Origin: Bryoerythrophyllum caledonicum | Taxonomy: Eukaryota > Streptophyta > Bryopsida > Pottiales > Pottiaceae | Direction of reading: 5' to 3' | Assembly (NCBI GenBank): GCA_963971425.1 | Contig: OZ020519.1 | Coordinates: forward strand, 19,675,397-19,739,396 | DNA length: 64,000 bases | Shown: positions 1,350-35,979 of the stretch, piece by piece | Layout of the letters: each line of letters opens with the position of its first letter | Numbering within the stretch: the stretch's first letter is position 1 | Notes under the pieces: generated by a model | The model's input: the letters and a program-made list of their open reading frames with translations, nothing else | The model's database searches: none | What the model was told of the DNA's origin: nothing | Made by a program: the position numbers and the translations under genes

Positions 1350-2079
1350 GAAAATATCGGGAATCGGGCAAATTTGTTGGGGCCATGTACCCAAGTAGAG
1401 ATGCTCTTACAAAATCCACATCAAATGCTCGGCCAACAAGCCGTTGAGCTACCCACCCGGTCACTTTTTATTTGAGGTCCACAACAACATTCGGTGAAGT
1501 GGACAAACAGAGCCGGGTTCCACTAAAACTACACTTACCATGGCAAAAATGCAATTCCAGTCGTGCCATGTCAAGATATATTTCATATTTTTATTTTTTT
1601 CCAGAAATAAGAGGAGGCTAAGGTGGCAGGCTTGTCGTGTAAAGAAAGATCGATAACTACAACAGATCGAGAGTCCAAACCAACATCAAGTAAACAAAAA
1701 ACATACACTAAAAGAAGTATACGTAATACACCCTCAAGTACCCACCTCAGCGGATAAAGGGACCTTCTATCTAGGTTGGCCCATACAACACCAACAAGAC
1801 TAGACGCCACGGTGATGTCGCTGCAACAATTGTATCCATCAAGTGTATGCATCAAGTGAAAGATGTGGCCCGTCGCCGAATCAATAAGCATATGGAGAAG
1901 TAACATAGAGAGGGCAGGTTGGGTGCCATGTGAGCCCCATCTTTAATTGCCGTAGGCAACTTTGTTGCCAATCCCTTTCCACATTGCCTATCCTTTAATC
2001 GAAACCAGGAACTCCAACAGGATGGCAACGCATCACATAATGACTAGTCCACGAGGACTTCAAGTTGTTTGATTGGATG
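1350..2079. other. 3' flank of the gypsy element, no gene
   Basis: Probably the 3' untranslated region or LTR of the retrotransposon immediately upstream in coordinates, but I could not find a matching LTR copy on the other side. On the minus strand at about 1,440-1,480 there is a tRNA-like A-box (GGTAGCTCAACGG), without a convincing B-box. Confidence 0.35.
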
Positions 2080-2093
2080 AAATGTGGCTGAAA

Positions 2094-2227
2094 GACAACG
2101 AGGGCAAGTCCAATCCCCGAACGATAGAGTAGAAAGTGGTGGCATCAAGCAAGCCATATGCCAACCAAGTTAGAAATGTTCACAAAGCAACATGCTAGCC
2201 GCACCATTCTTCTCACCACACACAAAA
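2094..2227 (-). pseudogene. PHD-like zinc finger at the pol C-terminus
   Basis: Directly after the integrase the minus strand reads FVCGEKNGAASMLLC, then an EHF-stop, then LGWHMACLMPPL and GDWTCPRC. The spacing C...LLC...GWHxxCL...WxCPxC is that of a C4HC3 PHD finger, a domain that in host proteins reads histone H3 tails. Here the first cysteine is replaced by tyrosine, another by phenylalanine, and a stop lies inside, so this copy is dead. The integrase-linked position suggests a role in target-site choice, which is inference. Confidence 0.7.
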
Positions 2228-2289
2228 TACGGAAGGCCGTCGGGCACAACTGCCAACTCCGGATGAACGGAGCCATCAATGGGTAAATG

Positions 2290-3410
2290 ATAGGAAGCAC
2301 AATTTTTCAAGTGCTCTCGACACTTCCGCTCATCCTTCCCTTCCAACAACAAGATGCCACTGGGCAACACATCCTTCACGCAAAGAATGGTGCACCCAAC
2401 CTTGACGTCCAACATCGTGGGTGCCTCACGCTGCAGATAAACGTAATCCCCTGTAGAAAATCGTCGCAGCTGAGGTCGGTAGGCACCGCTACAAATACAA
2501 GCGTACCATAAGGTGTCAGGGTGTTGAGCGATGGACAAGTTCTTCATGGTCATGGGCATAGCTTGCTTGAAGAACTCCGCTCGATTTTGTAGACACTGGG
2601 CCCACAGCTCTGGATCGTCCAAATCCATAACCGGAGCCAACTTTTTCCAAACGGAACTCAGTAAAATTGGCTCCCCCCTGTACAACAACTGATACGGACT
2701 GAAAGCAGCCAGTGAAGCCTGCGGACTAAACCGGTATCCCATGGCGATCTATAGTATCATCAGATTCCAATTACGTGGTCACCCTAAAGTAATTCATACT
2801 TCCGTAGGCCCCGCTTCACGGTCTAAACCACACGCTCTGCCAAATCGTCCGCTTACGGGTGATACCGAGAAGTGGTACGATGGTCAATCAAAGCCTTGGT
2901 ACACAAAGCTTCGAAAGCCCCAAGGAACTCACGTCCCTAGTCAGTCAAAACCTCAGCAGGAGCTCCAAAACGAGCCAGTACCGGGTCCAGAAATGCCATG
3001 GCTCCCAACTTTAAAGAGTTCTGCAGAAGAGCCACAAGCTCAATCCACTTGCTGAAATGCTCCACCATCACGAAGACATACTTGGTTCCTTGTGCAGTTA
3101 CGACAAGTGGACCAACAAAGTCCAAAGACCACCGGTATCCTAGCCTCATAATAGGCAAAGGCTGCAACTGGGTGTTAAGGAGTTCAAGTTGAATCTAATC
3201 CGATCACATACTTCATACCGAGAAACATACATGGTGACCTATTGATACATGTCGGTCCACTAATACTGACTGCGCAACATCGAATGAGTCCGTCACACAC
3301 CAAAATGTTTTAGGTCTTCGTAAATTTGTTGTACCAACGAAGCCCTCTGATCAAGCCTTGGAACTATGCGCCTAGTCCCATTTGGCCACACCCAAAATAG
3401 AAGGTCGTTC
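2290..3410 (-). pseudogene. integrase core of the gypsy element
   Basis: An H2C2-like N-terminal region at about 3,230-3,360 (QRASLVQQIHEDLKHFG...) leads into the catalytic core. The first aspartate is in WSLDFVGPL (about 3,108-3,131), the second in LTD followed by a TAG in place of glutamine (about 2,937-2,948), and the glutamate in LAERVV (about 2,850). These are the D,D(35)E residues for strand transfer. A C-terminal stretch (2,290-2,742) with GYRFSPQASLAAFSPYQLLY and a basic SH3-like segment completes it. At least three in-frame stops are present. Confidence 0.82.
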
Positions 3411-3679
3411 TCTCAACGGAACCTTGCTATTTGGTGCCCAACTCTACCACGCTCCATAGCAGAAAGAGCTAGGGGAAGTGTTCCATGTTGTAGTTTGTAC
3501 AAGACTGGACTGTCTTCCCATACATCGCTAACAAGTTGGGCCCTATCCGGTTTCTCATCCGTGTTCAAATCATGCAACGTCGATGCGAAGCCACACATCA
3601 ACATGAGGTAAGCCGCTGCATGCCACACCGGCAAGGACTCCCTTTCACAGTCCCCTTGTGACCTGACACCAGTCAAATC

Positions 3680-5180
3680 CTCTTCTGAAAGATTAGGATG
3701 CGAGATAGACCATCCGCATCTAAGTTCGTGATGTCGGCCGGATGTACAACCTCAGAGTCATACTCCTGAAGCAACAAAATACACCTGGCGAGCTTGCCAG
3801 TAAGCTTGTCAGACTCCATGAGACACTTCAAAGGTTGATGGTCGGTCACTAACGTAAAACGTTATCTATACAAATACGGCCTAAAATGGGCTATGGCCGA
3901 AATGGCAGCCAAGGCCTCTCCATCATAGGACGTATAGTTGGACTCCGCGTTGTTGTTGCTCTTAGAAGCAAATGCCACAACATACTCCCATCCTTCATCA
4001 TCCTTCCGAGTCAACACAACCCTCAATCCCACAACACTCCAGTCTGTGTGCAACTGAAAGGGTCTTGTAGCATCCGGACGCCGCAGCACATGCGTTGAAC
4101 CGAGCTTCAGCTTCAAAGTAGCAAATGTCTGCTGATGCTTCCGTCCCCAAGTCCATGGCTGCTCTTTCCCCGTGATAATAGTAAATGGCTTAGCAATCAA
4201 GCTAAAGTTCTTGACAAACTGGCGATAGTAATTCTCGAAGCCAAGAAAAGCTCAAAGCCGTGACACGTTGTCTGGGGCACGAATCTTCTGCAACGCATCC
4301 ACCTTGGCCTGCTGCATGCCAAGACCCTCTAGAACAATCATATGTCCCAAATATGGCAACCGATCGTGGAAGAACTTGCACTTGCCATGGTGTAAGATCA
4401 ATCCCCACTGTCGTAACCTCTCAAACACCGCTTGAAGATGCCTCACATGCGCCTATGGGCTCCTACTAAAAATGATAACATCATGAATGTAGCATCGGGC
4501 AAACGGTAAACCAGCCAACACTCGGTCCATCACCCTCTGAACTCAGCGGGTGGGTTCTTGAGGCCAAATGGAAGAAACTTCCAATGATAGAGTTGATCTC
4601 TCCCATCCTGATCAACTCTTCAAAACGCAGTCTTCACCTCGTCATCCACCATCAACGGTAATTGGTGGTAACCAGACCACAAATCAAGAGTACTAAATAC
4701 TCTAGTATGGCCCACCGCATCAAACGACTCCTCCGGCGTGAGCATGGGATACCGGTCTGACTTGGTCGTGCGAGTGATCGGCCTATAATTCCCACAGACC
4801 TGCTTCTCCGTCTAATTGCCAAAGATATCCTTCTTCGATGGCATAACCATGGCACAAGCGTACTCATCGTTAGAGAGCTCAATCAAGCTGGCGGCCAACA
4901 ACTCCTGACAACGAATCTGAATCCCATCTTTCTCAAAGAGACTGAGCTTGTACGGTCATCGAAAGATCGGGTGGTCGTCTTCCAATTGAATGTGAATTGG
5001 TTTGCCTCTATATCCCTTCAAATTATGGAGGCTAAAGGCAAAACAACTACGATACGAACGTATAAACGCTCGTACCCTTTCTACCTCGGCACCGGTAAGA
5101 TGTGGCTCCAAATTCAAAGCCCAATCATTAAACTTTGTGGTCTCCTTCTCCACCGTTGAAGACTCACCCCGTACCGGCAC
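3680..5180 (-). pseudogene. reverse transcriptase and RNase H of the gypsy element
   Basis: The RT begins near 5,180 with HNLKGYRGKPIHIQL, continues through CGNYRPITRTTKSDRYPM and FSTLDLWSGYHQLPL, and reaches the active-site box. This box reads YIHD instead of YxDD (4,480-4,491), a loss of one catalytic aspartate. RNase H follows at 3,862-4,200 (HTDWS..., VVAFASKS, YDGEALA) and closes with HPADITNLDADGLSR at about 3,700-3,745, the usual end of the gypsy RNase H/tether. Stops and frameshifts are scattered throughout. In the intact element this enzyme converts genomic RNA to DNA. Confidence 0.85.
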
Positions 5181-6853
5181 GGCCGGTGATTGTTACTTGG
5201 TTGCAGAGAGGGCATCAATGCCCCAAGACTCCTCACGCACGAGATCAACATAAATTACCGTCTCGTGATAATAAAACCGGACAAATATATCCCAGGCATC
5301 CTCTCAACCAAAGTCCCCGGCCAAGGCTGCAAAGACACGATGAGCACGGAGCTTGTCAGCTGCATGCTTCTTCGAACAAAAAACCAACTCCGCTTCCTCG
5401 ATCTCTGTGAGATGTGGCATCGTTGCCCCTTGACCATCACAGTCTGTCCCCTGCACGTGTGGATGGGCCTTCAAACGGCGCTAAATGGCGAAATACAAGC
5501 CACAAACCCAAACGAGGGTGTTGAGGTCAATGGCTCGACCCAACATACAACGACGTTGGCCCTCAGAAAGATCCAGTGCGGCGGTGGTGCATGTCAAAAA
5601 GCCCATCGCCCGCTCCCTCTCACTGGCAGAAGGCTCCTGGTAAGTTTGTAAAGAAGAATCCCAAACCATGCGCGGACTTGGTGTCATAAAGGCAAAAGAT
5701 CATGGATAACACATCAACGTGGGAAATGCCCCCCAAGTGAAATCAACGCGGTTGTAGTCTAAAAATTTAGGATCGTTTATCTAACCCAAGCTACATAATA
5801 AAATTGGTTCAAGGTAAGGACTTTTTGTTTAGCATTTTTTAGGAACTAATGGTTAGGTGTAGATTACAAAGAAGATAATTCCTTAATTAATAACACAAAG
5901 TATTTTCTCAAACAAAGCTCAGGACTACTCTACAAGTTTATCTAAAACTCTCTCTTATTGCATCCCATAATCATAGGGTTAAAAAGGTGATTCAAATTGA
6001 CCATAACCAAGGTGCATAAGCCTCATGTGTTTATAGCCTATTCAAATAGACAGTGCTTTGGTCCAATAGACAGTAGCTATAATATATATGCCATTCATTA
6101 ATTAATCTTAAGCTATGTGTTTATTAACCAAAGTCTATCTATTTGCATGAAATTCAATAAAGAAGTTTACTTATCTCAAGCAAACTCCCGCATGCCTTTT
6201 CCAAGACATCTCCATCACTCCATCACAAGTTCCTATTTTTTATTACCATGGGTTTATATTCTCGTCACTCTTAACATCATTTACTCTTAATTGAATACCG
6301 ATTATGAACTTACAAAATCTATCAAACTAGTTTACTACTACAAGTTTTAATTAATTAAAGGGTGATCAATCCTCTAAAAACATCTATGTAATTACATTAA
6401 TTTTAGTTTTACAATATTACATCAAGTTCTTTAAATTAGACTTCTAATAAATTAGTTGCACAACTCGTCTATAGAATCTAAATTATTTCTGTTTCACAAT
6501 TACACCATGATGTTAAATTTACTATAACTCCCTCTTCTGGATCATCACTTTTAACTCCAAAAAACATTCAAACTTCATGCCTCTCACAAGTGCATCTTGA
6601 AAATGCACATTGATCATTTCTATCATTAATTAATTTTGTTATTCACAATAAAATTAATATTGTTTCAACTCCTGAACATTCACTCAATCATTCAGGCAAC
6701 AAGCAGTCAGCATTACTCTTGCGCTCTGGCATTTCCAATTGTCAGTTAGACTGATGTAAAGTGAACACAGTTATGTGCATGGTGTGGTACTCCATGGAAC
6801 TTGACATTGATTTACTGATGTCCGGGGTCCCACTCAAATTGCATGCATTCCCA

Positions 6854-7888
6854 TTAACCCCTAAAGTCGAAATCGACCAGAATGTGGTCGATCTGACTCT
6901 GGTCAGGCTCTCAGTTACTAAATTTAGATTTTATGAAGTTACATTTTTGGAAGGTTGTAGAGTTTTCCCATACCTTTAAAATGACACCATTCATGCTTCA
7001 AAATTCCTCATACTTTAGGAGATATTCACGGTCAAAGTTTGAAAACACTGTTAGGGCATGCTGAAATCTGCCCAAAACTGCGGTATATGCTCATTAATTC
7101 TCAAAATCTGCCCAAAATCAATTAGATCGCAGTAACTTCAAAAATTCACCAAAAATTGAGATTTTGCTTTTTTTCTAATTTTGTTTTTCGTACATGTAAG
7201 AGAGGTAGTAAAGCATGATCTCACCGTTTGGATTTTCAATCCAATAATTTTTACACGCCTTTTTAATTGTTGAAAATGGGCATTTGTATTTGTATTTCAG
7301 CATACCTCCATGTGAAAAATTAAGCATTTCTTTAGGTTTTACAGGTCCTATGAGGGTAAAAATTGTATGGACATATTCCTTACTCACATAGGAACAAGAA
7401 TTTGAAGAGCCTCATGTCAAATTTCCTTTCGAAATTGGTTTTTTGGCCCCCAAAACATTAGTTTTCCATTCTACAACAAGGAAAAAATATATTTTTTCAA
7501 CTTTGAACATTACGATCTCACAAATGGAGAGGAATTTGAATCTAAGATTTGGTATGCATGTACAAGAAGAAGAACGCCGGTTCCCGGAGGGAACCGGCGT
7601 GAATAAAGTGTCTGTTCGTTCCATTGCTAAGACCATGCCCACCGGACAAGGAATTAGCCAACTGGAACTACTTCCCCCTTTCGAGGGTAGACACTATGTA
7701 ACGAGTAGCCAGAAACCAACCAACAACGACCAACCACGACTATGCATGTACATGTACAAGTTAGGTACTAGATCTTATGGTTACATACTCAAAAATTTGT
7801 CAAAAGTTAAAAATTTTCACCTTGCATTGAAAGAGGGCAGTTTTGAGGGTTTTTGGCAGTTTTGAGGGCTTTCGACTTTAGGGGTTAA
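6854..7888. mobile_element. TTAA-flanked element, family 2, copy A
   Basis: Terminal inverted repeat TTAACCCCTAAAGTCGAAA is perfect over 19 bp at both ends. The internal sequence is nearly identical to 47,686-48,525, except that this copy is longer because of a 176-bp insertion plus a 12-bp duplication at 7,553-7,752. No transposase is encoded. Confidence 0.8.
7565..7740 (-). mobile_element. 5'-truncated LINE tail with target-site duplication
   Basis: The minus strand matches the last ~150 bp of the LINE at 26-36 kb (ACATAGTGTCTACCCTCGA, GGTGGGCATGGTCTTAG, TTTATTCACGCCGG) and ends in a perfect 11-bp-stem hairpin and a short TTC tail. It is flanked by a 12-bp direct repeat, TATGCATGTACA (7,553-7,564 and 7,741-7,752). 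The empty site is visible in the sister element at 48,370-48,395. This is a typical 5'-truncated target-primed insertion. A SINE using the same tail is the alternative. Confidence 0.8.
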
Positions 7889-8060
7889 CTATTCACATAC
7901 ATACATGACCAACGATTTTGCTAACTTCCTCAATTCAGATTTGTACATAAATGCTGTCAACCTGACTTGAAATCTTATCCATTATATTAAATTTGTCAAT
8001 CTCAACTTGAACAGAACCAGAAGTTCACAAAATGTTTCTATCTCATCAAACTAAGAGCTT

Positions 8061-8200
8061 CAAATTACTTGCTCCAATTGACATACACTCTCTAATTATT
8101 CTATTTCTATTGTAGTGTTGTGTTTTACTTCAAATTACTTGCTCCAATTGACATACACTCTCTAATTATTCTATTTCTATTGTAGTGTTGTGTTTTACTT
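8061..8200. repeat. 70-bp tandem duplication
   Basis: CAAATTACTTGCTCCAATTG and the following ~50 bases occur twice, at 8,061 and 8,131, with no visible divergence. The identity suggests a recent duplication. Confidence 0.9.
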
Positions 8201-8795
8201 CTTCTTTAGACTTTGCTTATATGTTCAAAGTCTAGTTGACAATCCTTTTTATCTAGATTTCAAAAGGTGTAGCCGTCACGTCTAGAAGAATCAGATTATA
8301 AGGGACGGCGGCTACAAGTCTATTAGAATCTCCTTTTTTAATCTCACAAGCTTAATCATATATCTCCTTAAACTATTTTCAAAATGGTTTAAAGAAATAA
8401 CTCCTTTCACACTATCAAATCAAAAAAAGGTTCAAACTAAAAAATTTAACGTTCACAACGGTTCACCATGGCCAATGGTGGCTCATCATCCTTAGTAACA
8501 TCCGTAGAAACACGGTGGTCGTCCGAGATGTCCTCGACCTCACGACGCACGGGTTGTTGCACTTGAGCATGTGCAGAGGTGAGCGGCGCCGATGTTGCCA
8601 TGTTGGTCCAAATCCAACGTGGCCGATGGGCGTAAGAGCCCAACGCCGCTGCATCAACAAAACTGGGGGGACCAAGAAGGTGATGGATGTATGCCCCATC
8701 CTCACACACCTTCGTCCGTGTATCTCTCAATGAAGATACATTCTAAAAAATGTACCCCGGTGGCGTCAATTGGTGGGTCAAGCCATTGACCTCAT

Positions 8796-8945
8796 CACCC
8801 TTGTTTGGATTTGTGGCCTCTTTTTTTTGCCGTTCAGCGCTGTTTGAGTGACCATCCACTCGTGTCGAGGCAGGCTTTGATGGATAGGGGGTAGCGGTGC
8901 CACATCTCACAGAGATTGAGGAAGCGAAATTGCTTTTTGGTGGTT
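8796..8945 (+). repeat. inverted duplicate of the methyltransferase C-terminal segment
   Basis: The plus strand here matches the minus strand of 5,391-5,536 at roughly 80 percent identity along about 145 bp (shared peptide pattern IDLxTLVWxCGL and ATSHRD/ATMPHLTEIEEAE). It is inserted backwards between methyltransferase motifs IV and VI. The flanks on the minus strand carry similar strings (TGGACTAACCACCAA and TGGCTTGACCCACCAA), suggesting a target duplication or microhomology. Confidence 0.75.
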
Positions 8946-9699
8946 AGTCCACCATCGGATAAGCCTGAGCAAATCCGCAAAGAGACCCGACCGTGGATCA
9001 TCTAAGCCATGTCCACTGCCCGCACGTGAATGGCCTTGGCAAGGCCATTCGGCAATCACTAAGTCCACGTGACCTATCCGGCGAAGATCATCCTCACTGA
9101 TCAACGTCACATCACGTCGCAACTTGCCAAAACACCCTCGAATTGCAGAAGGTGGTAACTGCTCCGAATACAATGCCAAAAGACGCTGAATGTCATGGTG
9201 AGCGCCATGGATGGCTGCAAAGCCACTATCCACGTGGGTATACCGTCGTATCTTGAGCCCGACCTCTAACACAACCGCGAGCCACGTATCGATACCGGAA
9301 AATAGCCCCACAAGGATAATACTCTCATCCGGTGGTCGCCAGTGAATAGAGCCAGCCAACAACGGAGTGGAAGAGTTTACTGAAAGCTGTGGAGCATCAA
9401 TAGCATCCACAATCTCCCAACTGCGGCGTGTGAGCTCTAACTGAGTTTGCCATGGAGAAAGGGGATCTTTGTAATAATGTACAGGGATCTCCACTCATCC
9501 TTACGTGATTCCGCTACCCCTGATGTAAAAGCATATGTCTCCTCCAAAATCGTAGAACCACACGGCAAATCGGATGCCAAAGCACTACACCCGAATATTG
9601 CATCCGTTGTGGAAGTCACCGCGCTAGCTACGAAGACAACCGGAATGATCTCCTTTCTGCCACCACTGGCAGACCACCCAGGCCTAATCCATGCCTACT

Positions 9700-10015
9700 T
9701 CGTCTAGTTATCCTCCCCAAAACCAAGGTGATAATGCGCATGCTGACCCACCAAAATGCCGTAGTTGGTGGCGCCAGTCGGAGCGCACTGGAGAGATACG
9801 TGAGAGAACAAAGGACTAGATTCCACGCCAAACATCAACTGCAACGGATGTCGGGTGTAGTCCATGGCCTTCTCCATGGCCTCAACCGATGTAACAATCG
9901 TAAATGGGCAAGGCTCAAGGTTTGAAGCACCTAGACCCAAATCCTAGGCTAACTGCTTGTCAGTCATCACTAGCTCAGCTCTGGAGTCCAACATTACACA
10001 TAGGGGGGTAGCTCA
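9700..10015 (-). pseudogene. retropepsin-like aspartic protease remnant
   Basis: On the minus strand a VMLDSRAELVMTD string occurs at about 9,960-9,995. It aligns with the retropepsin active-site context (hydrophobic-D-S/T-G-A), but the glycine codon is changed to arginine (codons at 9,980-9,988). It is followed by a stop and then an open stretch ending GILVGQHAHY. Position between gag knuckle and methyltransferase fits a protease that matures the polyprotein. The identification rests on this one motif and location, so it is moderate. The mutation of DSG to DSR would inactivate it. Confidence 0.55.
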
Positions 10016-10814: not shown

Positions 10815-11990
10815 AGGTGAAGAGCAAAACAGTTCTCATCACTGTGGCTAGTCTTGCCACAATGAGAGCATGTCATAGCCTTCTTCTCCTTGCCCTGAGC
10901 CTTTTCTGTAGTCTTGGCCGCCTTGATCTTGGGCTTGGCATTCGCGGTGCCTGCCCCCTTCTTCTTGGAGCAATTGGGGTCCTCTTTGGTGGGACCTGCC
11001 TCCGTACAAGCCCATTAATGTACAACCTCTTTAGGTTGTGCTTCCGCTAAGCTACCGGTTGCGGTGGCAAGCTTCTTGGGCTTAGAAGCATCCATAAGCA
11101 CTGCGACCAAATCCGTGGCCTCGCTCACGCCCATCGCTCTATCAAGCGCTTTCACCTCGGCAAACGCTTCCGCCGTAGTGGCGTTCCCGTGATACCAGAA
11201 AAGAAAATGTGTACTAATATGCTCCACCATCTGCTTATCGAGCTTGGAGATAAAGATCTTCACCACCTCGCGCTCCGTGAATTCATCCCCAGCCTCCGCT
11301 AACAACCGTGCCAACCGAGTATACATGGTGCGAGAAATATTGTCCTTCTCTCGACGAAAATCCTGGATGCGTTGCATCTGATCACGCTTGAATCCCCCAT
11401 ACTCCCCCTCCAAAGGCGCCACAAATTGCACCAAAGAATCGAAGGTTGGCGGATCATCAACTCCCATCAATTATGTCGCATGTGATGCCACGGCCAAACG
11501 TGACATGGCCCCCATGCGAGACCGTTCGGCCACAACGACAATGCCCTGGCCCCTGGAATCCTCACTGAGGAAACTCTCTTCCAGCTTGGACTCCTCGGTG
11601 GAAGTCAAGAATTGGGCAACTGCAGTCTCCTTGAGCGCGGTTACCAACTCCACAAGCTGACGCCAAAACTCCTCAACAGGGCACATCTGTGCATTGTGTT
11701 TTCTATTCCACCTTCCGTATGACATGAGGGCCCCCAACTCCAAATGTTGGGGCAGGAGCTCGAACGCATATCAGTCGCTAAAACGACGGCGTCCGCTGGC
11801 GCTTCTCTTTCCTCCATGTTTGGAATCGAAGTCGCCAATCGGGCAGTGACATGCCCCTAGTCCATCCTGAGAATTTGTCTTGTACAACATGACGGAGATC
11901 GGCTTCCATGTCGCCAAACGTGCCCACGCCCCAGATCCGAAGCCCACGGTCGGTATCCAACGCCAAAACAAGCTCAAAAGCCTGGTCGGT
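10815..11990 (-). pseudogene. gag with retrotransposon-gag domain and CCHC zinc knuckle
   Basis: The best frame lies at 11,015-11,470. It shows the typical gag alternation: a conserved FxxL...F start, a GGFKRDQ loop, YTRLARLLAEAG, and a final helix ending before MDASKPKK. The N-terminal part (11,470-11,970) continues in other frames. Downstream, 10,829-10,870 encodes CSHCGKTSHSDENC, a perfect C-x2-C-x4-H-x4-C knuckle for nucleic-acid binding. In an intact element this polyprotein packages the RNA. Several frame changes separate the parts, so it is not expressible as it stands. Confidence 0.75.
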
Positions 11991-12050
11991 CTCTGACCGT
12001 GGCCGAAAGTCTGTGGTGGAAGCACTCTCCGAGTGGTTTGGTGAGGGAGA

Positions 12051-13883
12051 GCGGTAATACCGACTCTATGTACTCACTATAAACAATAACTACCTCAGAA
12101 TCTATCTACGTGTATTATCTAAAGGGTAAGGGTACAAACGGGCAACCTGCACCTGCAAGACCACCAAACTTTGTGGTTCACCAGCCATCACTTCCGACTA
12201 GCACGAATCCAACCACAACCCTCCACACAGAATGGTCTTGCCGGCAATAAACCCGACTTCACCCCTACAATACGCTATCACGATCTAGTACAATAAGAAA
12301 TATGGCCACCGAAAAACACCGGCAACAAGCCCGCAACACTGGGAAGATACCGCACAAGAATCCAGAAATCAAAATCGGATCCTCTCCCCAAACATCATTA
12401 AAGCAGAAAAGACAAGGGGTCAAAGCCAGTGGCACACGCGTGCAGTGGATGGTTAGAGTCGCAAACCTGCAATATAAAAGCAAATACTAGAAGTGTTTTT
12501 GCATAGTCTAGCACTAAGGAAATATTGGAACTTGTCCGCAGTGTTCAAAAACACAAACCCCACAATGAAATGCAATTCAATGGATGAGAAACGCGACAAA
12601 CGCCAGTCCTCAACTAAAATTGGATTAAATGGCGGAATTCCAAAATATAGGTGCAAATGTCAGTCACACCCGAGTAACAATGCTCTTGTAATCTACTCCC
12701 AAAGTCTTGCACTAAATTTTTTCTTTAGATCACAAAAAAATGTCAAAATATTTTGTTTTTGTAAACTAACAAGTTTTTGCAACAGTAATCTTAGATTATC
12801 CTCGCAAACTCAAATCTGCAATTGGAATTCAAAAATAAGTTAAATTGCAAAAGTTAAAAAAATATATGCTTCCATTACATGGACTCTTTAAAATTTCAAC
12901 TCAAAACTCACGCATTTAGGTGCTTCAGCATGGATTTAGGTCCCTAATAAATTTAGGTCCCTAACGGATTTTGGTCCCAACGCAGTGTGTACAGAGCTAT
13001 AACAAACCGGTTCAAAAAATAGCTCGAAAGCACAGTGTGAACGGGAAAAATTGAAACCGATTTGGCCGCCGCAGCACAATCTAAGGAAGGAACTTGAAAA
13101 ACTTTGAAGCCTCCTAACTTCCTCAAATATTGTCCATTTTGAGCACCATTTGTTGCGCAAAGACCGTCGCAACGCGCTCTACAAAACCATGTTGAATACC
13201 CATAGATTTTCTTTGATCACCCAAGCTCAACTTTAAGAGCTATAGAAAAAAGTGTGAGAGGTCTTTGTCAAGTAAACAAGTATGAAATCACTCACGTAGT
13301 CAAGCGTCTCGCACTCCACAAAGGGAGAATCAATGAGTGCAAGTAGTATAAGAGAATGCGGAGCCTTTACTAATGACAAACAATCACTTACAAACAAAGA
13401 TAATCACTAACACTTTCTAACTCACTCATAAAGCTTCACTTGACAAAGATGTCAAGTCAAGGACGTGTGCGGCGCTACACGCACTCGCATACAACCCTAA
13501 GTGGATGAAAATCATCCACGAATGAATGCGGTGCGCAGCCGTTCGTCTCTAAATAGACGTAGATTAGTAACAAACTAATCTACGCTAAAAGTACGATATG
13601 GAGAGGCCCTCGACGCCACGTCCAGTGATAGCCTGCATGTAGGTGAGCAAGGGCTATGGGATGATTGAGCTGTGGGGACGTTGCGGGTCTTATTTGGCCA
13701 ATAAGGCCTTTGGCTTTCGATATCGGAATGTAACACTACGAATCAAGTGGGTCTTGCTACCGTAGGTGAACCTCTAGTTCGGCACCTCCATGCCGAATAA
13801 CTAATTAAAGTGAGTAAAGGCCATTTGGCATCCATACAAAAATATATTAATTTTTGGCAAGAAATCACATATTACTGTATTTA
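12051..13883. other. 5' flank of the gypsy element and unassigned DNA
   Basis: The part next to 12,050 should contain the leader and 5' LTR of the minus-strand retrotransposon, but I found no matching terminal repeat. The rest is AT-rich and has no supported gene. A dispersed repeat lies at 13,365-13,590. Confidence 0.35.
13365..13590. repeat. dispersed repeat, copy 1
   Basis: Order of blocks is shared with 21,325-21,548: ACTAATGACAAA, CTCAT-CAAAGCTT-ACTTGACAA, AAGTCAAGGA, CCTAxGTGGATGA, ATCCA, and AACTAATCTAC at the end. The two copies are strongly diverged. Element class unknown; an old LTR fragment is possible. Confidence 0.55.
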
Positions 13884-14241: not shown

Positions 14242-15666
14242 AGGTAGTTATGCCTAAAACCGCCAAGTTAAGCAATGTATATGTATGGAAAGCCCAAACA
14301 ATATTACATTTATTTTTCAGTAGTAGCCAATAGACTTACAAGTTCAACCCAAGTGATTTTATATTTTTTTTATTAAATGTGAATTAGTAATGATTTTTCA
14401 AAGATACATGTGAAGAATGTTGGGTCACCGTCAGTAGGTGGGGGCCATGACCCTCCCACAAATGGCCTAAAACCGCATGCATAACAACTTAAAACCGGCA
14501 ATGAGTCAACCTTAACCCCTAAAGGACTAAGAGTTATTTCGCTCTAAAACCAGTCCAAAACTGCCACTGTCAAAAAGAGACATGAAAATCACATTTTAAA
14601 GTGAATTTCGGATTTTCAACCGTAAGATCTTAAAATAGACTTCCATATAAACATGCCATCAAATTTTGGTTGCAATCCACCGCACAGATTGATAGATTTT
14701 AGTGTTTAAAGTCAAAACAATGGTTCATTTTCATCCCTGCGTTGAGTAGATCAGCTGACTTTAACTTCATTTTGTATCAAATTTTTGCATTGAACAAGGT
14801 TGAAATCTTTTACCATTGTCTTAAGCATGATGTTACTTCCCAACACACCAATTTTTAGAGCTAAAAAAGTGGTGTAGCATATTCAAAACAAGTGTGCAAG
14901 GAGTGGAGGTTCAAAAATTGCCATTTCACGTTTTATTTTTTTGTGAACTACATATGTATTCAAATGATAATCCAAACGGTCAATAAGAAGGTTTTCACCA
15001 CATATTGTTGTTGAAAAAATAAAAAGTGAAAAATATGAAGATCTCTAGGTTTTATGTAGAAAAGATGAAATTTTTTTCCCGGTTGCCCAACAATGTGTGA
15101 AAATGTTTGACTTGGAATAAAATGCCTTTTTACACTAAAGACAAGAATTTTTTTGGAAAATTTCTAAAGAAGGAAATATTCTTTATATGTGTGAAAAATC
15201 TCAATGTCAATAGAAACTTTTGTCAAAATTTTTGGAGGTGCCCGGAGTCCCCACTTTTGGCTTAAGTGGTACTAACTTTCAAACCACAAATCCAAAAATA
15301 AATAAATAAATATCTCCACGAAGCTCTTATCAGATCCTATCTTGAAAAAAAATTCCAATTAAAAAGTATTTTTTTCGAATCGTGGGTACCTGCCCAAATT
15401 CACCAGAGGACCGTTTTGGTCCTCTTAGTCCTTTAGGGGTTAAACTAATTCTAGAAATATTCCATTTTCTCCACTCTTGCATGTACAATAAGTCTAGAAG
15501 ATCCCACTTTCCTTAAACCACCAACTGTGCATCCAATTCATGCCACCCTAGCCTTTTCTCCCGCCATTAAAAATAGAGAGTTGGTTACACGTGCAAATAG
15601 TGGCGGTTTTTGGTGAAAAAGCAGTTGGCGGCCTTGGGACATTGGCGGTTTTAGGCATAACTACCT
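14242..15666. mobile_element. TIR element with a nested TTAA element
   Basis: A perfect 25-bp inverted repeat beginning AGGTAGTTATGCCTAAAACC bounds this segment (14,242-14,266 and 15,642-15,666). Removing the nested element at 14,512-15,443 leaves about 490 bp with no open frame, a MITE-like size. Flanking duplication is not clear. Confidence 0.7.
14512..15443. mobile_element. TTAA-flanked element, family 1, copy B
   Basis: Both ends carry TTAACCCCTAAAGGACTAAG in inverse orientation. This is the best-preserved family 1 copy (932 bp) and has no coding region. It is inserted inside the TIR element 14,242-15,666, which fixes the order of insertion. Confidence 0.82.
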
Positions 15667-21112: not shown

Positions 21113-22551
21113 GTGTGTGCGTTTCTTTTAAACAAGTTGATAGTGGGTTTCTTTTTGGTTCTGTTGTGTAAATAGCCATTGTCACACACAACAACTTGAG
21201 TGCCATTACCAACATCAAATTAAAAAAAGAACAGCCATAAAAGTGCACACATAGCACACCCTCAAAAAGCAAACTACATGTCCGAGAACCAAATAGTGCA
21301 AATGAAAATGGAAACCACAATTTTTACTAATGACAAAAATTGTCATCTACAAGCTACACTCAGGAATCACTACCTCTCCAACTCATGCACAAAGCTTGAC
21401 TTGACAAGAATGATAAGCCAAGGAAGGTTGCAGTGCTTATACACTCATACCCTAGGTGGATGATCTCATCCATTGGATGAGAAAGGCAACAACCAATGAA
21501 CACCTTCCAAACCAAGTAGATTGCAATTTGAAAACTAATCTACTTAACTACTACTTCGACGCGGTGATGTGGCCAATGTCGTGTATCATGACAATTTGGT
21601 TTCTGGATGCAACTGCTTTGGCTATTTTGGGACTGTGGATTCTACAATGGTGACTTTGATTTTTTATCATATAAAATTGAGCTCTTCTTATTTGTGGTTT
21701 GATAAATTAAAAACATGTTATTTAGATTCTTAGTTTTTTTTTGTATATACGTGGTTTAGAAGTTCCTCAATTTTATGTTATTTTCTCATACATTTGTTGT
21801 TGAGAAAGAGAATGATGACAATTGAGTTATTCGTAAAGGGAACCGGTCTTTTGTCCTTGTTTTTTCATGCAAAAGAGAATCTAACTTGTATTTGAGTGTA
21901 GCCGCAGAGTAATCCTGTGAAAAAAATTCTGGGTTTGAGGGTTTTGAGGAGGTGTTATTTATGGCACAAGTGGCACAAATCTCCCAAAAAAAAACAAGAA
22001 CAATCATGAACGTCATGACACTCTGGCATGTATCCTACAATCCTAGAGCTGTGCATGATGTGAAGGGTCAGAGTTTGCTTAAAATAAAAGCTTGGCACAA
22101 ACTCGAGTTTGGGAATTCTAGGGCTCAAAAACTAGTCTATCCAGTGTTCTATTCAAGGTCTACAGTGAAACCCTGCCAGTGGACTCGGCGACCCTGGCTT
22201 TTCCATTTTACAGGTTAGAAACTGAGGATTTGGGGTACTTTGCGGATAACTAATGTGGAATGTAACGAACGCTAAACTGTGGTGAGTTTCTTAATAGATT
22301 CTTGATTATTGATTATCAAGGCTTCTGTTTATGTTTCTATATTTGTTACAATTATAGTGTTATTAGACATTTAGAGTCAACATGTTTTAATTTCTACATA
22401 TTTGGATTCCCTTTTGGAGCCTATGTTTTGTATTGCCAAATTAATGTAGGGCACTCATTGTGCTGCACTTTATCTTAGTACCAGCAGTCAGTATATGGAT
22501 GGCTCTTTCATTTCTTGTGGTAGTGTGAGCATGATTTTGATGAAGATATAA
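21113..22551. other. unassigned DNA; second copy of dispersed repeat at 21,325-21,548
   Basis: The only feature supported is the diverged copy of the 13,365-13,590 repeat. Short open frames here have no recognisable similarity. Confidence 0.4.
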
Positions 22552-28983: not shown

Positions 28984-30330
28984 AAACTGCAACCAGAATA
29001 CAAAACACATCGCTCAAACATTCGCATCTTTTTTAAAGACCACACATACACTACACCATTTGCACAACATTACACACCCAAATATTTCCCAATACATACA
29101 ACAACAAAATACACATCCACCAACATACATCTTATATGCCCTAGTCACTACCACCCATCCAAACATAGAAGAATATAACCATCTTTTAAACCCACAAAAT
29201 CCAAATATAATTACATGGACTAACACACTATTACGAACCTTATCAAACTTACAAAATCCACTCAAAAGACATATTCATACCCCGCATCCATATACAAAAT
29301 TTCTTGAAGAAAATCAGAGTATTATAAATCACGGGAATTCAATACATAAAGAATTATACAACTTTTTACTTAGCCAAACCATACCGCCATCAAGCGATAC
29401 AATAAAACAAAAATTTCCTTACCTTCCTAATAATCTAATTAACGAGACACTAAAATGTTTTGACCCCATAGCAGAATATAACCATCCACCCCCTCCCCCC
29501 TTTTTTCTTCCCCCACAAAACCAAAACATTCGTACAAACAACGAAAATACAAACATCATTACATGGAACGCGTCATCTCTAAACACTACTCTCCCTAGTT
29601 TACAAACTCTGACCACATATACAGAAACACCATTGGCCCTCATAGTCATTCAAGAAGTAAAAATATCCGCCACACAATCTACCAAATACATACAAAACAT
29701 ATTCCATGACTATAAACTTATTCTTAATAATACACATGCACTAACAAGATGCATCCAACAACAAAGACCATATACACCGGGCCGCAGAGGCCTCCTCACA
29801 CTAATACACAAAAAATATGCCTTCATGGGCAACATCAAAAAAATTCCTACTCCAATGCAAATATCCCCCTACCTTCAAATAGTTAGAATTACTAATCAAC
29901 CACTACAACCATGGCTAATCTTCCACATGTATATGCCATCTCACTCCGAAGATACTAGATTTATTATAGACATACAAAACACTATTACATCTCAAATGAA
30001 TCAAAACCCTAATCATACTTACTTGTTATGTGGAGACTTCAACAGAGACATAGCATTAATTGGTAGACAAAACGGAAATCATAACACCCCCTCCAAACCA
30101 TAGATTATCAATGGCGCCACTTCACAGAAAACTTAAACTTCACTTATATAAATACTGATACACAATACTCCAGACATGGCGGTTGTAACTATAGTGATTG
30201 GAGCCTGATAGACGGCTTCTACACAAATACAAATAATAATACACAATACACTTCCACAACAAACAAAGACATTATTCTCAACTCGGATCACTTGCCCATA
30301 CAATTTCACATCCCAAATAACATATTAATT
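28984..30330 (+). pseudogene. LINE ORF2: APE-type endonuclease domain
   Basis: The domain is recognised by NIITWNASSL (from 29,552), IVIQEVKIS, GRRGLLTLIH, CGDFN (GDFN at 30,032-30,043) and, after a frame change near 30,103, SLIDGFY and NSDH (SDH at 30,283-30,291). These are the metal-binding and catalytic landmarks of the exonuclease-endonuclease-phosphatase fold, which nicks target DNA for primed reverse transcription. The about 170 residues before it are unrecognised. Confidence 0.82.
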
Positions 30331-32660
30331 AGTTGTACCCCTATAATCACAAATAATACCACTAAACGCATACTTAACCCCATCCCAAAAGATAACTTAG
30401 GAAAATTTAACACAAAATTCTTTGAAGAAAATTCCATGCAAATTGACTTTCTCATAAACATCCTTGAAAATAATAACCAACTCTTCCAAACAAAATGGCA
30501 CGAAACATGCCACACCCTAGATACACTTATCAACAATATCTCTGATACATTGGAGCAAACTTGCAAAGCCCAACCAATACCACAAATGACAAACCGAACA
30601 TCACAACAAGGTGGTTATTTACCCCGCAAACTTTCTAAAATATGGAAACAACACCTAGCTACATACCATATAATACGAAAAACTATTAGAACTGTAAAAA
30701 ATAACCCACAATGGCGTAATCATCCCATATGTACCGAATTACTAACTTTGCATTATATCCAAATCCCTGCCCCACCTTCCCGGACCTACCCCATGACACA
30801 TGGATAAAAGACATTGCACTAATCGCAAAAAATGCCAATATACAAGCCCGGAAAGTAACTACAAAATATTCAAAAGATAATATTTAAAAAAACCATCTTA
30901 GACAACAGACAATTATACAAAACTAGCCCTAAGAAAATAAATAGAAAAGTTTTTTAGAAACTAGAATCTTCACCACTAGACTGTATTACTGACCAACATA
31001 ATAACATTCTAACTAGCCTGGAAGACATTGCAAATGAAATATTCAACCAACAAACAACAAATAATAGACCCATAGTACCAACATGCAACTACCAACCACA
31101 ACTCCTAATCGAATGCACATGTGCAGTACGCCAATACCCATGGCATGATCTAGATGGATTTACTTTAGACAAGAGAGGCAAACCTGAAATTCCATTACAC
31201 ACATACTTCAACAGAGCCATATACGACACATGTCTCCGCAACCTCGGAAATAACAAAGCCACAGGGCCAGACCGTATACCGAATGCAATACTAAAAAATA
31301 TGCCCCCAAGATTTCATAAATTACTTTTTCTATTCTTTTCTCACTGCTACAAACAAAAACAAATATAAGCCTCATAGAAAACAAGTGCAACAATTTTACT
31401 ATACAAAAAGGAGATCCTTCAATACTACCTAATCATAGACCAATTGCATTAGCCAACACAATATATAAACTATATACCAGTACACTCACCTCAATACTAT
31501 CCTCATATGGTGAAAAGTTTAAAATCCTACACAATAGTCAAGAAGGATTAAGAGCAGAAAGAAGTACCTCTAGACAAATACAAACCATAATAGCGGCACT
31601 AGAAGACGCACAATTCATAAATCAAGATATATATATGTTTTATATGCTGACTTCAAAAACGCCTTTGGCTCTATTGATCACGCTCGACTACTAGCAATAA
31701 TGATTGATATTGGGTACCCAAAAGATGCAAGTGCAGTAGTTGGAAACATCTACTCCCAATCATCTACTTACTACACAAGTGAGCACTTTGGAAAGACTAA
31801 GCCTATCCCCATTCATAGAGGAACTATACAAGGAGACACCCTTAGCCCATACCTATTCATTATATTTTTAGAACCACTACTTAGATGGCTAGAGAGAGGC
31901 AATAATGGGTACACCTTTGGTACATCACAAATCACCATAAACTCCGCCGCCTACGTCGATGACCTTGCTACTATAATAACAAAATCAAATAATTACAAAT
32001 ACAAATTGATAAAACTGATAGATATTGTAAATGGACTTGTATGGATGTAGGAGTCTAAAATGCGTTGCTACTGGATGCCCAAATAAATCCAAAATAAATC
32101 CAATTGCATTTAAAGTCCTAATGCAAGCTTCTAACATCAACTACCGTGGCCTACCAATCCTCATACTACACCAAAATGAATCATATGTATACCTAGGCAC
32201 AGATCTTGTTCCCTCTCTAAAATGGAAAATCCAAATTCACACTATGACCACAAAACTCATTAAACAATGTAAAGAATTAACAACATACCTGGCCACTATG
32301 AAACAAAAAATTAAAATGGTTGACACCGTAATACGCCCAGGTGTAGCATACAGCTACTATGTTGTACCATACTCTATGCCAGCTATCAAAAATCTTGATC
32401 AAAAGATTATAGCCATCCAAAAAACCATCTGTGGTATGCCAAAATGCATGTCAAACGCAATAACCCAACTCTCACATAACCTTTTTGGACTAGAAGCTTT
32501 CTCCCTAAAAAATGACTATCTCCGATGTACAGGGGAACAATTACAAAATGCCCTAAATGAAAAAGGTAGGCTTGCAAAAATATATTATGGATTAACTCAA
32601 TATGTACTTGCTCAATATAGAGGTGCCGAATATATACCTATAAAAAAACAGATTGTATAA
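30331..32660 (+). pseudogene. LINE ORF2: reverse transcriptase domain
   Basis: Finger motif NKATGPDRIPNAIL lies at about 31,250, then RPIALANTIYKLY, then QEGLRAERST, YADFKNAFGSIDH, the GTIQGDTLSPYLF loop (RxxxQGDxLSP) and the active site AAYVDDL (YVDD at 31,952-31,963), all typical of LINE enzymes. The thumb continues into 32,031-32,660 (YVYLGTDL, as in the usual YLG motif). Frames change near 30,810, 31,370, 31,640 and 32,040. It would copy the LINE RNA at the nicked target. Confidence 0.85.
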
Positions 32661-34350
32661 GATCACCAATAACTTGTACATTTTTCTTATTAAAACACGT
32701 AGGCAAAGTTCACCGTAAGAGTACACTTCCAAATTTCTTCTTTGATCTTATACCATTAGAAGTCTTATGGTGTCAAGAAACACGGAACCATAACACATTC
32801 AACTCCCAACTTTCCCAAAAGCTGTTACAAAAACTTCTCTCAAAAAATATTTTCAAATTAAAACAAATCACTTTACCAAACGGCACACACATCATGAATA
32901 GTGAGGACTTCAAAAACTTCCACTTCACCCCATCCAACTAATCAAGAGTGCCCTAAATGTTGCCAACAACTTTTTTGCCACCCACATGCCCCACCACATG
33001 TACTATCTCTTGACAGCATACACCCATACTCCCACATACTTTAACATACACAACGCACACAACATACACCCATACTCCCACATACTCCAAGACCTATTCA
33101 TCACCATCAACAACAACACCCTCTAAAGAACTACCCTACCACCAATCCACCCTCCCAACCCCTTACACCCACACCACCCCCGTCCCCCAACAAACATCCC
33201 CAAAAATCCCACCACATACCCCATTAATAACATCATATGCCATGAACATATACAACATCTAGATACCAACAAAATACAAAATACCTCTACAAGATATTTA
33301 TGCCAATGGCAACACAACAAGAACACATTCAACAAATGGCTCCCTCAAAGAAACCTCTTTCCAAGACACGACAGTAATACTTCCACATATAACACCGAAA
33401 AATTAAAACAATACTATCAAAAAATTAGAAATAAATTCTACTCGGAAATCATTCAAGCTCACCACCCTCAAGAACAATTACAAGACTCAAGATCTATAAC
33501 TCCACCCATAATCATTCCACTCCTAAACATCTACACAACGGAATGTAACCCCGAAAACGATATTCTCACACTCTCAAACACAATTAAAATAGAAAGAAAT
33601 CAAGCCCACCTATATGAAGAAAATGGCCGACATTTATACACTATTCCTACAACTAGACTTCAATGGCTATGGAACCAATACAACATGAAACTACAAACCC
33701 CTACAAACATCGAATCAACAACCCAACCATTTGAAACCAAATTAATTTGGCTATACGAAATATATAAATACCACATTCCAAAAAATAATCCCCTCAAAAG
33801 TGCACAATACACAATACTTACACCCATTCTAGACTCATTAATTTCAACCTTTAACATCGGACAATCATACTTCTCTTCCCCCATCACATGTTCCACCAAA
33901 CTAAAAAAATGATGTTCACCCTTTCAAAGAGATAAAATATTTGGCTCCCTGGGAAAGGCCTTTGACTATAAATGGGCCGGCAATGGTATAGCTCACCCTC
34001 ACAATGATGAAGAAACTCGACAAGCACTACATTGGGCCCACCTTGCAGCCAAAAATGACTCACATCACACATCTACACTCATTATCACATCGGACAAAAA
34101 TTGGTACCAAAACTTTAACCAACACTCAAATCCATTTACAGACTCCCATATCATTGCACTATTTGAAGTAGACTCAATTCCATACAAAGAACCCACTATT
34201 CCACGGGTGATAAAAAAGCCCCGGACTGAACCATCTACATTACAAATAATATGTGTCCACCACCAAAATCAAACCCATGGCACCCTATAACAGCTTGCTG
34301 AACTCACCTCCATAGCAAATACTCTAAACATACACCGCCTATACACAAAA
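32661..34350 (+). pseudogene. LINE ORF2 linker between RT and RNase H
   Basis: Broken frames with no recognised domain. A 75-residue frame at 33,685-33,912 and others show the same base bias as the coding parts, so this is probably decayed ORF2 sequence, not intergenic DNA. Confidence 0.45.
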
Positions 34351-35253
34351 ATGGCCCCACCATCAACTATACAAACCCCCGTAAACCAGAGCAAAAAATG
34401 GTCAAAACTAAACTACATCAATAATACATTAGATTACCTTGTAATACCTCCACCCCTCCCAAACTACCAAACCCCAACCCTACCAAAATTTAACCCGACA
34501 TATAGCTACTATACCGATGGCTCCTTCAAACCGCCAAAACAAATTAGCCTGGGAAACTGGCGCAAAGAAAAAGTTGGCTATGGCATATACAATCCTATCA
34601 AAGAAATCAAACTAGCCAAAAGACTCCATGGACTACAAAATATCCTTAGAGCAGAACTTATGGCCATACACAAAACACTACAAATCATCACAACAAAATA
34701 CAACAATGAACCCGCACACATATTCATAGACTGCATCAATGCATTTTATCTACTATACACCCAAATAACACACCCTACCCTCCACAATAGCCACCCCGAC
34801 CAAACTATATTAATGTCAATGGTCCAAATGTTAGAAAACCGAACACAAATGACAACCCTTCACAAAGTTAGAGCCCATGCCAATATCGATGGTAACGAAC
34901 AAGCACATAAACTTGCAAAAGAGGGCCGCGAAAAATCGCATAAAAATGCCAAAGACTCATACGAACATGCACATGCTACCCTATACTACTTCCAAAAAGA
35001 AGATTGGCCTTCTAAAGAACATACCCCCGATAAAGGCCCGGTTAGATTCTTAAACAAATATCTCAAGAAACAAGACCTCTATAACAACCTTGATACAATC
35101 GCAGAAAACTCCCCTAATATAGAAAAATGGACTGGCAACAACAAAATAGACAATGAACTCTCTACGGATTTCTGGAAGAATCCCATCATCTCCGACTCAC
35201 AAATAACTTTCCTCATCAAATTTCGTACCGGTCAATATATGGGAAATGCCTGA
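34351..35253 (+). pseudogene. LINE ORF2: RNase H domain
   Basis: A single 300-residue frame carries YYTDGSF (first aspartate), LRAELMAIHKTL (glutamate), HIFIDCINAFYLL (second aspartate) and KVRAHANIDGNEQAHKLAK (histidine and the final acidic region), the order of type I RNase H. The last catalytic position, usually aspartate in a NExAD motif, appears as NEQAHKLA, so activity is doubtful. Its role would be removal of the RNA template. Presence of RNase H after RT fits the Dualen, I and related LINE clades. Confidence 0.82.
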
Positions 35254-35979
35254 AAACAACTCTTCTTTGGAATAGAAAGATTCTCATCTATAACATGCCC
35301 CATATGCACTTCCACGGACCCCGACACATGGCTCCATGTTCTACTTAAATGCCAAAACCATTACATACACTCCCTAATCGTCAAAAGACATAACAAAGCG
35401 GTATGGGAAATTCGAAAACCAATTACCTCCCATATCAAATCACGTTGTTTTATCCTCATGAATGCCGGCACCTTTAATAACAACCTACAAGAAAATACGG
35501 TCCCCCTTTGGCTACTCCCATGTACATGTGTAACTCAACGTTGTCATTGCAATACTAGACTCAAACCAAACATACTTTACGTTCGAGGCCTACCATACAA
35601 TGACCCCGCACCCGACCACATTAACCAAGACTATACCATTCAATTCATCGAATTCACATATTTGTAATTCACATATTCATCAAACTCCCTAGAAACAATT
35701 GAAAACAAAATGAATAAATACCAACCCCTTATTGATGACATCATAGCCATGGGATGGAAAGTGGACCCCCTTATTGTAATCACAGCCGACGCCCGTGCCA
35801 CCACCTTTATCCCATCTATAAAAATCCTTGAAGATACCTTTAAAATCCCCATCGAAACAAGTTCACACACTTTCAATAACATTAACACCATTGCCATTCA
35901 ACATGCTATGTCCATCCTACTACACGAACGCAAAATTGAAAACAACCAAGCCCTCCCCGACACACAAAACCCTCCATAG
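35254..35979 (+). pseudogene. LINE ORF2: CCHC knuckle and restriction-like endonuclease
   Basis: CPICTSTDPDTWLHVLLKC (35,296-35,352) fits C-x2-C-x9-H-x4-C. It is followed by KRHNKAVW (RHN at 35,385-35,393), RLKPNILY (KPN at 35,563-35,571, expected KPD) and FIEFTY (35,644-35,661), the acidic-x-T box. CCHC, RHN, KPD and D/E-x-T in this order define the RLE endonuclease of early-branching LINEs (R2, Dualen). A conserved tail follows (GWKVDPLIVITADARATTFIPS). One stop at 35,665 splits the tail. The KPD aspartate is lost. Confidence 0.72.

Follow-up and report, generated by a model that had tools for sequence, protein, structure and literature searches.

The 64,000-nucleotide (nt) stretch of contig OZ020519.1 of Bryoerythrophyllum caledonicum that was analyzed here (positions 19,675,397 to 19,739,396 of the forward strand, assembly GCA_963971425.1; hereinafter, the window) contains on its minus strand a gypsy-type retrotransposon that extends from 13632 to 1633 and in which Gag, a CCHC knuckle, a protease, the blocks of a C5-cytosine DNA methyltransferase (DNMT), reverse transcriptase (RT), RNase H, integrase and a PHD finger follow one another in this order (Table 1). 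This copy, old and dead, belongs to a large family with a characteristic layout of two open reading frames (ORFs): ORF1 encodes Gag, CCHC, protease and a DNMT3-type methyltransferase, and ORF2 encodes RT, RNase H, integrase and the PHD finger. The ends of the element were fixed by alignment to L002, a related contig described below. The initial annotation had given the span as 5391..9494; the methyltransferase blocks are indeed found there but the element itself extends well past it.

The window copy has to be considered dead because two insertions disrupt the DNMT and further frame changes and stops are spread over both ORFs, with 17 stops in the tblastn piece spanning Gag to protease; nucleotides 8415-9285 and 13-2624 of L002 align with positions 12287-11400 and 11517-8937 of the window. 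Compared to L002, which is not the ancestor of the window copy, there is an excess of C-to-T changes (455 of 3772 sites, against 228 of 3487 in the reverse direction) with no clear context specificity, and this pattern neither suggests escape from methylation nor proves methylation. The larger of the two insertions includes a perfect 70-nt tandem duplication at 8058-8201.

The methyltransferase domain

Block 1 of the methyltransferase, from motif I to PCQ, lies within an open frame (9494-8910, minus strand), and its match to PF00145 is above the curated cut-off; the block with RPRWIWTN (8742-8449) and the block with motifs IX-X (5699-5484) yielded no Pfam match when scanned alone. In tblastn, residues 690-874, 871-978 and 969-1162 of L002 ORF1 align with window positions 9491-8937, 8781-8458 and 5777-5196, at 79, 83 and 68% identity, respectively, and the methyltransferase of the window is one complete domain interrupted by two insertions rather than one open gene. 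A chance match is excluded because block 1 is matched by independent proteins with E-values down to 1.6e-57. The original claim, of a C5 methyltransferase located between the protease and the RT of a gypsy element, is thus borne out: on one and the same strand, the protease precedes the methyltransferase, and RT, RNase H, integrase and PHD follow it.

The enzyme had been assigned at first to a joint DNMT3/DRM group. A profile built from 15 family proteins was run against chains of known structure and matched best DNMT3A (3.1e-21), followed by 4onj (1.5e-10), a chain labelled only 'DNA methyltransferase' that we take to be tobacco DRM, and then DRM2 (1.8e-8), HaeIII (6.5e-7) and DNMT2 (1.4e-4); no chain named DNMT1 was matched by this profile at E-values up to 0.01. 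The motif order, I-IV-VI-VIII-IX-X, is canonical, without the rearrangement. By this order and by the best profile match, the enzyme is of the DNMT3 class and not a DRM, so that only the first half of the earlier assignment holds. Among the 53 near-full-length rows of the alignment, the catalytic Cys is conserved in 50, the E and the N of motif VI and the Trp of motif VIII in 52 each, and the full WPCQ in 41.

The DNMT evolves under strong purifying selection, as seen in one pair that consists of one copy from each of the two intact subfamilies: between L025 and L023, pN is 0.065 and pS is 0.663, the latter near saturation (pN and pS, nonsynonymous and silent divergence), with corresponding values of 0.132 and 0.698 for Gag, 0.021 and 0.544 for RT, and 0.021 and 0.540 for integrase. 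The Ka/Ks ratios (nonsynonymous to synonymous rates) between the window copy and L002 are 0.33 for DNMT, 0.27 for RT, 0.37 for RNase H, 0.27 for integrase and 0.22 for the PHD-bearing stretch. In very close pairs, the changes in DNMT are too few to judge (pN/pS 0.004/0.004 in L025-L033 and 0.005/0 in L023-L036), and comparisons with the more distant L040 are affected by full or near saturation of the silent sites. Among nine proteins and L002, the mean identity is 0.83 for DNMT, 0.82 for protease, 0.67 for Gag and 0.65 for the tail. Between L025 and L033, the silent divergence of DNMT (pS 0.004) is far lower than that of the rest of the element (0.02-0.08), which suggests recombination between copies.

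In a tree of 54 DNMT rows, which has no host root (14 DUF3444 matches were found in the window's genome), the window copy falls within a 15-row set (100/100 support), next to L002 (90/81), and the rows from Marchantia, Calypogeia and related metagenomes form a separate 14-row set (100/100). Several deep joins are flagged for long-branch risk and, given that several long branches meet at the root without host sequences, the deep branching is unsure.

Family copies, reading frames and terminal repeats

The search of the window's genome (437 Mb, 894 contigs) yielded at least 123 scored matches to PF00145 from 1053 first-look candidates; in 19 of the 123, the match is free of stops and lies in an open frame of at least 1300 amino acids (aa), two of these frames (L038 and L041) being fused across the stop site. 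Twenty copies, picked mostly for long frames, were examined. Another of the 123 matches, L003 (C14:16014858-16018817), is a bacterial-type cytosine methyltransferase, a 370-aa frame on a 22-Mb plant contig that adjoins an insertion-sequence-like transposase frame (transposase named by eye); contamination, misjoin and transfer are the alternatives for its origin.

In 17 of the 20 copies, ORF1 terminates with TAG followed by CAACCA (15 copies) or CAATCA (two copies), and ORF2, which is full length (1041 or 1047 aa) in 10, is open in the same frame straight after the stop; in a further copy, L042, TAG CAACCA is present but preceded by an earlier stop. A genome-wide pattern that fixes CAACCA and leaves the stop codon free has 205 matches (control, 0), and among the 100 listed, 94 carry TAG and one carries TAA. 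Plant viruses use UAG-CARYYA as the signal for type I readthrough, and CARYYA has been reported to be effective on UGA and UAA as well (PMC5382211, PMC3542737). Thus, in the 17 copies as well as in L002, the context fits a putative readthrough signal of the tobamovirus type. The RNA 3' of the stop in L002 has a folding z-score of -3.36; no compensatory changes were detected in this fold between L002 and the window. The PHD finger was said initially to reside in one pol with the methyltransferase; both do belong to the same element but not to one pol frame, given the conserved stop between ORF1 and ORF2. Nor is this pairing special to the window copy, as had been proposed, because it recurs in L002, L025 and related proteins.

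In five copies, the terminal repeats are DIRS-like. In L039, repeat A (385-751) is followed by the coding region, repeat B, a second A (9603-9967) and a second B, and the same A-coding-B-A-B arrangement is found in L040, L025, L030 and L041, although for L025 and L030 the start of the first A is outside the sequence examined. The B-A junction, CACGACAGCTGTCA, has 200 matches in the genome (control, 1). The element ends are TGTC...GACA, and all three A-B-A-B copies with both ends available, L039, L040 and L041, are flanked by 4-bp target duplications (AGCA, GTGC and TCCG). No tyrosine recombinase, the hallmark of DIRS elements, is present among the Pfam matches of ORF1 or ORF2, whereas a DDE integrase is. 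An interpretation of L002 as an element with long terminal repeats (LTRs), one of them collapsed, was considered and then dropped once the five copies with A-coding-B-A-B were found.

L002 itself is a 9285-bp contig from a metagenome-assembled genome named as a cyanobacterium; it encodes the whole element and probably represents eukaryote DNA binned into that genome. The contig ends share an exact 127-nt repeat, ORF1 closes with TAG, and the same-frame ORF2 encodes RT, RNase H, integrase and PHD (E=4.3e-10).

Relatives are found well outside the window's genome. The protein search with block 1 yielded 11 proteins, of which P0002 and P0008 contain the end of the protease upstream of DNMT in a single frame. 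Two further searches, each scoring the 8000 candidates that shared most words, yielded 157 matches to a Calypogeia protein, with Marchantia polymorpha, M. paleacea, Riccia, Calypogeia and Sphagnum among the 120 listed, and 37 longer proteins, including P0150, P0153-P0155 and P0157 from Marchantia, P0148 from Calypogeia and P0167 from Closterium. Klebsormidium nitens was not named among the matches listed in the protein searches, including the 120 of 157 just mentioned, most matches bearing no name. Using protease and DNMT motifs written for this comparison, a protease motif was detected in the DNMT's own frame in 40 of the 162 proteins with a DNMT match that were long enough to test (five of 167 were too short). 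Taken across sources, the protease-DNMT order recurs in L002, Marchantia, Calypogeia, metagenome proteins and the window's genome. P0152 and P0159 combine RT with DNMT by the database Pfam marks. In P0160, P0163 and P0165, which carry RT, integrase and PHD marks, DNMT aligns after RNase H and before the integrase, which is a second position for this domain. Four metagenome proteins that bear marks of integrase and PHD have an altered motif IV, which reads PECK in P0160, P0163 and P0166 and FECQ in P0165. L001, from viral contigs, was rejected as a relative of the element: its methyltransferase is 33% identical and lies on a phage-like contig.

Table 1. Features of the retrotransposon and of a related repeat unit in the window
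Feature	Position	Strand	Remarks
Left terminal repeat A	13257..13632	-	starts TATCAC (TGTCAC in relatives); 80% to L002 7055-7431; 86% to L039 first and second A
Gag part of ORF1, broken frame	11018..12096	-	start approximate, by L002 alignment
CCHC zinc knuckle region	10840..10900	-	approximate; CSHCGKTSHSDENC in translation; placed by L002 alignment
Aspartic protease, broken frame	9715..9980	-	approximate; aligned to L002 protease (Asp_protease_2 E=7.8e-4, below Pfam cut-off)
DNMT3 block 1, motif I to PCQ	8937..9356	-	PF00145 E=3.8e-8; 79% to L002
Inverted copy of DNMT 3' part, ~160 nt	8771..8941	+	CCACCAA flanks both sides
DNMT3 block 2, motif VI to VIII (RPRWIWTN)	8458..8781	-	83% to L002; 1 stop
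AT-rich insertion in DNMT, ~2.7 kb	5778..8457		AACCG flanks both sides; part repeated at 47686-48525
DNMT3 block 3, motif IX to X	5498..5777	-	aligned to L002 ORF1 969-1162; 3 stops in piece
ORF1 stop TAA, then CAATCA (fits CARYYA)	5193..5195	-	TAG CAATCA in L002, L039, L040
ORF2 RT and RNase H, broken frame	3700..5192	-	RT_RNaseH_2 E=5.7e-26; tblastn
Integrase, H2C2 and DDE core	2480..3412	-	ends approximate; rve E=3.3e-7, just under cut-off; tblastn
PHD finger, ORF2 C-terminus	2077..2230	-	aligned to L002 PHD (PF00628 E=4.3e-10 in L002)
Right terminal repeat B	1633..1738	-	ends CACGACA; no A-B after it in window copy
Lone A-B unit of related element	21162..21591	-	L002 A and B match side by side, 64 and 70%

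A proposed leaky stop and particle-borne methyltransferase, and the alternatives

Why would a transposon carry, and conserve, an enzyme of the class that is used to silence transposons? The explanation that we consider best overall, and rather probable, is that of a DNMT3-bearing gypsy family with an ORF1-leaky stop-ORF2 layout in which the DNMT, made at the level of Gag, acts on the DNA of the element. Most ribosomes would halt at UAG-CARYYA, yielding Gag-protease-DNMT, and a minority would read through, yielding a fusion with RT-RNase H-integrase-PHD. The DNMT would be produced and packaged at the Gag level, entering particles in Gag-like numbers alongside the complementary DNA (cDNA), and could methylate the element's cDNA within the particle. 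The RNA of the A-coding-B-A-B form would be converted to DNA with TGTC...GACA ends joined at the B-A junction, the integrase would insert this joined DNA with a 4-bp duplication, and the PHD finger may guide the choice of chromatin. The leaky-stop model fits with the stop being conserved as well as the enzyme.

Several observations do not sit easily with this scenario. The stop is missing from two of the 20 copies, L038, with CAG in its place, and L041, in which the site is lost; five of the 100 listed genomic sites are sense codons, and the window copy itself has UAA instead of UAG, along with a broken DNMT. Motif IV is PCQ in the family, compared to PCN in DNMT3A. For the one gypsy DNMT that others have assayed, that of K. 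nitens, no activity was seen in yeast, a result that the authors call inconclusive (PMC5890265). In addition, the counts come from young, related copies, with a preference for long frames in the set of 20, and are thus biased and not independent. At the DNA level, the window copy has no A-B after the first B, that is, it is A-coding-B; its flanks, AGGC and AGCC, differ at one of the four bases; and, by eye, no 4-bp duplication flanks the lone A-B unit at 21.2-21.6 kb. The empty site of the window copy, joined by eye, is the palindrome GCAGGCCTGC, perhaps a decayed 4-bp duplication. L035 and L029, like the window copy, finish after one B; such copies and the lone A-B could be leftovers of recombination between copies of B or between copies of A.

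The alternative that fares best, although we rate it as unlikely, is that RNA or the host, rather than cDNA, is the target of the DNMT, with transposition lowered by way of self-restraint or host benefit. Gag binds RNA, and the DNMT is joined to Gag; nevertheless, the profile similarity to DNMT3-class DNA methyltransferases is far above that to the tRNA methyltransferase DNMT2. Both RNA methylation and slowed transposition have been raised by de Mendoza et al. (PMC5890265).

Slightly less likely still is that ORF2 is expressed from its own start, through reinitiation, splicing or a second RNA, with the stop being a plain terminator. The gene models P0111 (Riccia) and P0154 (Marchantia) span DNMT into RT, presumably via a predicted intron over the stop, and ORF2 has its first Met as early as residue 16 or 24 in five of the 10 intact copies, which leaves room for a separate start and counts against readthrough. 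In the other five, however, the first Met is at residue 82 (four copies) or 117 (one copy), with the RT match starting at 126-128, so that a separate start is feasible for some copies but would come at a cost for others. The first ORF2 Met of L002 belongs to the same VMPSKK as the one at residue 117; furthermore, the frame that ORF2 shares with ORF1 is open straight after the stop, and the fit to CARYYA is seen in both subfamilies and in L002.

That this is a normal LTR retrotransposon, with A-B-A-B resulting from deletion or an assembly artefact, would accommodate the copies that finish after one B but is highly improbable, given that the first and second A and B are found in five copies in the window's own genome, on contigs of 22-65 Mb (the first A being partial in L025 and L030), and that the B-A junction occurs 200 times. 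Finally, the scenario of a gypsy element having inserted by chance into a host DNMT3 gene, named at the outset as what would refute the claim, fits the interrupted DNMT blocks and the presence of a host DNMT3 in the moss Physcomitrium reported in the literature, but is refuted, its probability being negligible, because the order is shared by L002, by the copies examined in the same genome and, as protease-DNMT, by other species, the DNMT is in frame with Gag-protease in one intronless ORF, and in intact copies terminal repeats and target duplications enclose the whole unit.

The combination of gypsy, DNMT3 and DIRS-like repeats is already known from the alga K. nitens: in the gypsy element KnitGypsy-Dnmt3, as described by de Mendoza et al. 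in 2018 (PMC5890265), the DNMT3 is part of the Pol ORF and evolves under purifying selection, and the repeats are DIRS-like. The family analyzed here shares with it the gypsy order of RT, RNase H and DDE integrase, a non-rearranged DNMT3-type enzyme, purifying selection and the A-coding-B-A-B repeats. What is new compared to the K. nitens kind is that the DNMT closes the Gag-protease ORF1, before a UAG-CARYYA stop, instead of being part of the Pol polyprotein, with RT-RNase H-integrase-PHD in a same-frame ORF2. The PHD finger, part of the element here, is not mentioned in the main text on KnitGypsy-Dnmt3 (PMC5890265), and the host here is land-plant-like; the two are set apart by the published description of the K. 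nitens element. With the DNMT outside the Pol ORF, we regard the present element as a variant and not as a member of the KnitGypsy-Dnmt3 family. SymbioDIRS-Dnmt3 and SymbioLINE-Dnmt of Symbiodinium are likewise retroelements with a DNMT, and the DIRS type has A-coding-B-A-B repeats but a tyrosine recombinase, in contrast to the DDE integrase and 4-bp duplications observed here (PMC5890265). With tobamoviruses, the family shares an exact match of the stop and the next six bases, as well as a same-frame downstream product, the replicase in the viruses; unlike the viral signal, the putative one in this retroelement follows a methyltransferase. SIRE1, a plant retroelement of the copia type, reportedly reads through a leaky-type stop between two frames into an envelope-like frame; here, the putative leaky stop is in a gypsy element and precedes the RT. 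A paper of 2025 repeats that some DNMT3 are located in retrotransposons. In the literature covered, which excludes most subscription papers, we found no report of such elements in bryophytes.

A broader and more tentative proposal, which we would not put beyond a possibility worth pursuing, is that land plants host a long-lived retrotransposon lineage with a hybrid replication cycle, combining a virus-type leaky stop, a Gag-like dose of DNMT, cDNA that is self-marked ahead of integration and DDE integration from a DIRS-like B-A junction. In the sources available, such elements had been tied to one charophyte and to dinoflagellates; the same kind is now found in the liverwort M. polymorpha and in a land-plant-like genome, where the family junction occurs about 200 times, and the question can thus be tested in a genetic model. 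The DNA methyltransferases of M. polymorpha are listed as five, of the classes MET, CMT and DRM only (Schmid et al. 2018). The location of DNMT before a leaky-type stop predicts a particle protein made with Gag, as opposed to a rare pol enzyme, and the A-B-A-B repeats together with a DDE integrase and 4-bp duplications raise the question of the replication route. The methyl marks, if made, could serve as a self mark, for protection, for chromatin choice or for restraint.

Other features of the window

An Rfam scan of the window detected no family at its cut-off. A dispersed repeat family is present at 431-1289, 14679-15244, 50413-50619 and 52274-53135, with copies 77-85% alike. The inverted repeats at 694-1179 and 14679-15154 were considered as terminal inverted repeats of the retrotransposon and rejected: copies exist at 50.4 and 52.3-53.1 kb with no L002 match there, and L002 places the ends of the element at 13632 and 1633. 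A LINE-like element with broken frames occupies 28985-35667 on the plus strand, which is G-poor in this region (RT, E=3e-14; RNase H, E=6e-10; weak endonuclease, E=7.5e-4). Two sugar-related genes are also encoded on the plus strand and, together with the kinship of the retrotransposon, would be consistent with a bryophyte host: an NAD-dependent epimerase of the UDP-sugar type in two pieces at 41494-42967, and a glycosyltransferase of family 34 (56444-57784, 446-aa frame, E=1e-53), presumably a xyloglucan xylosyltransferase.

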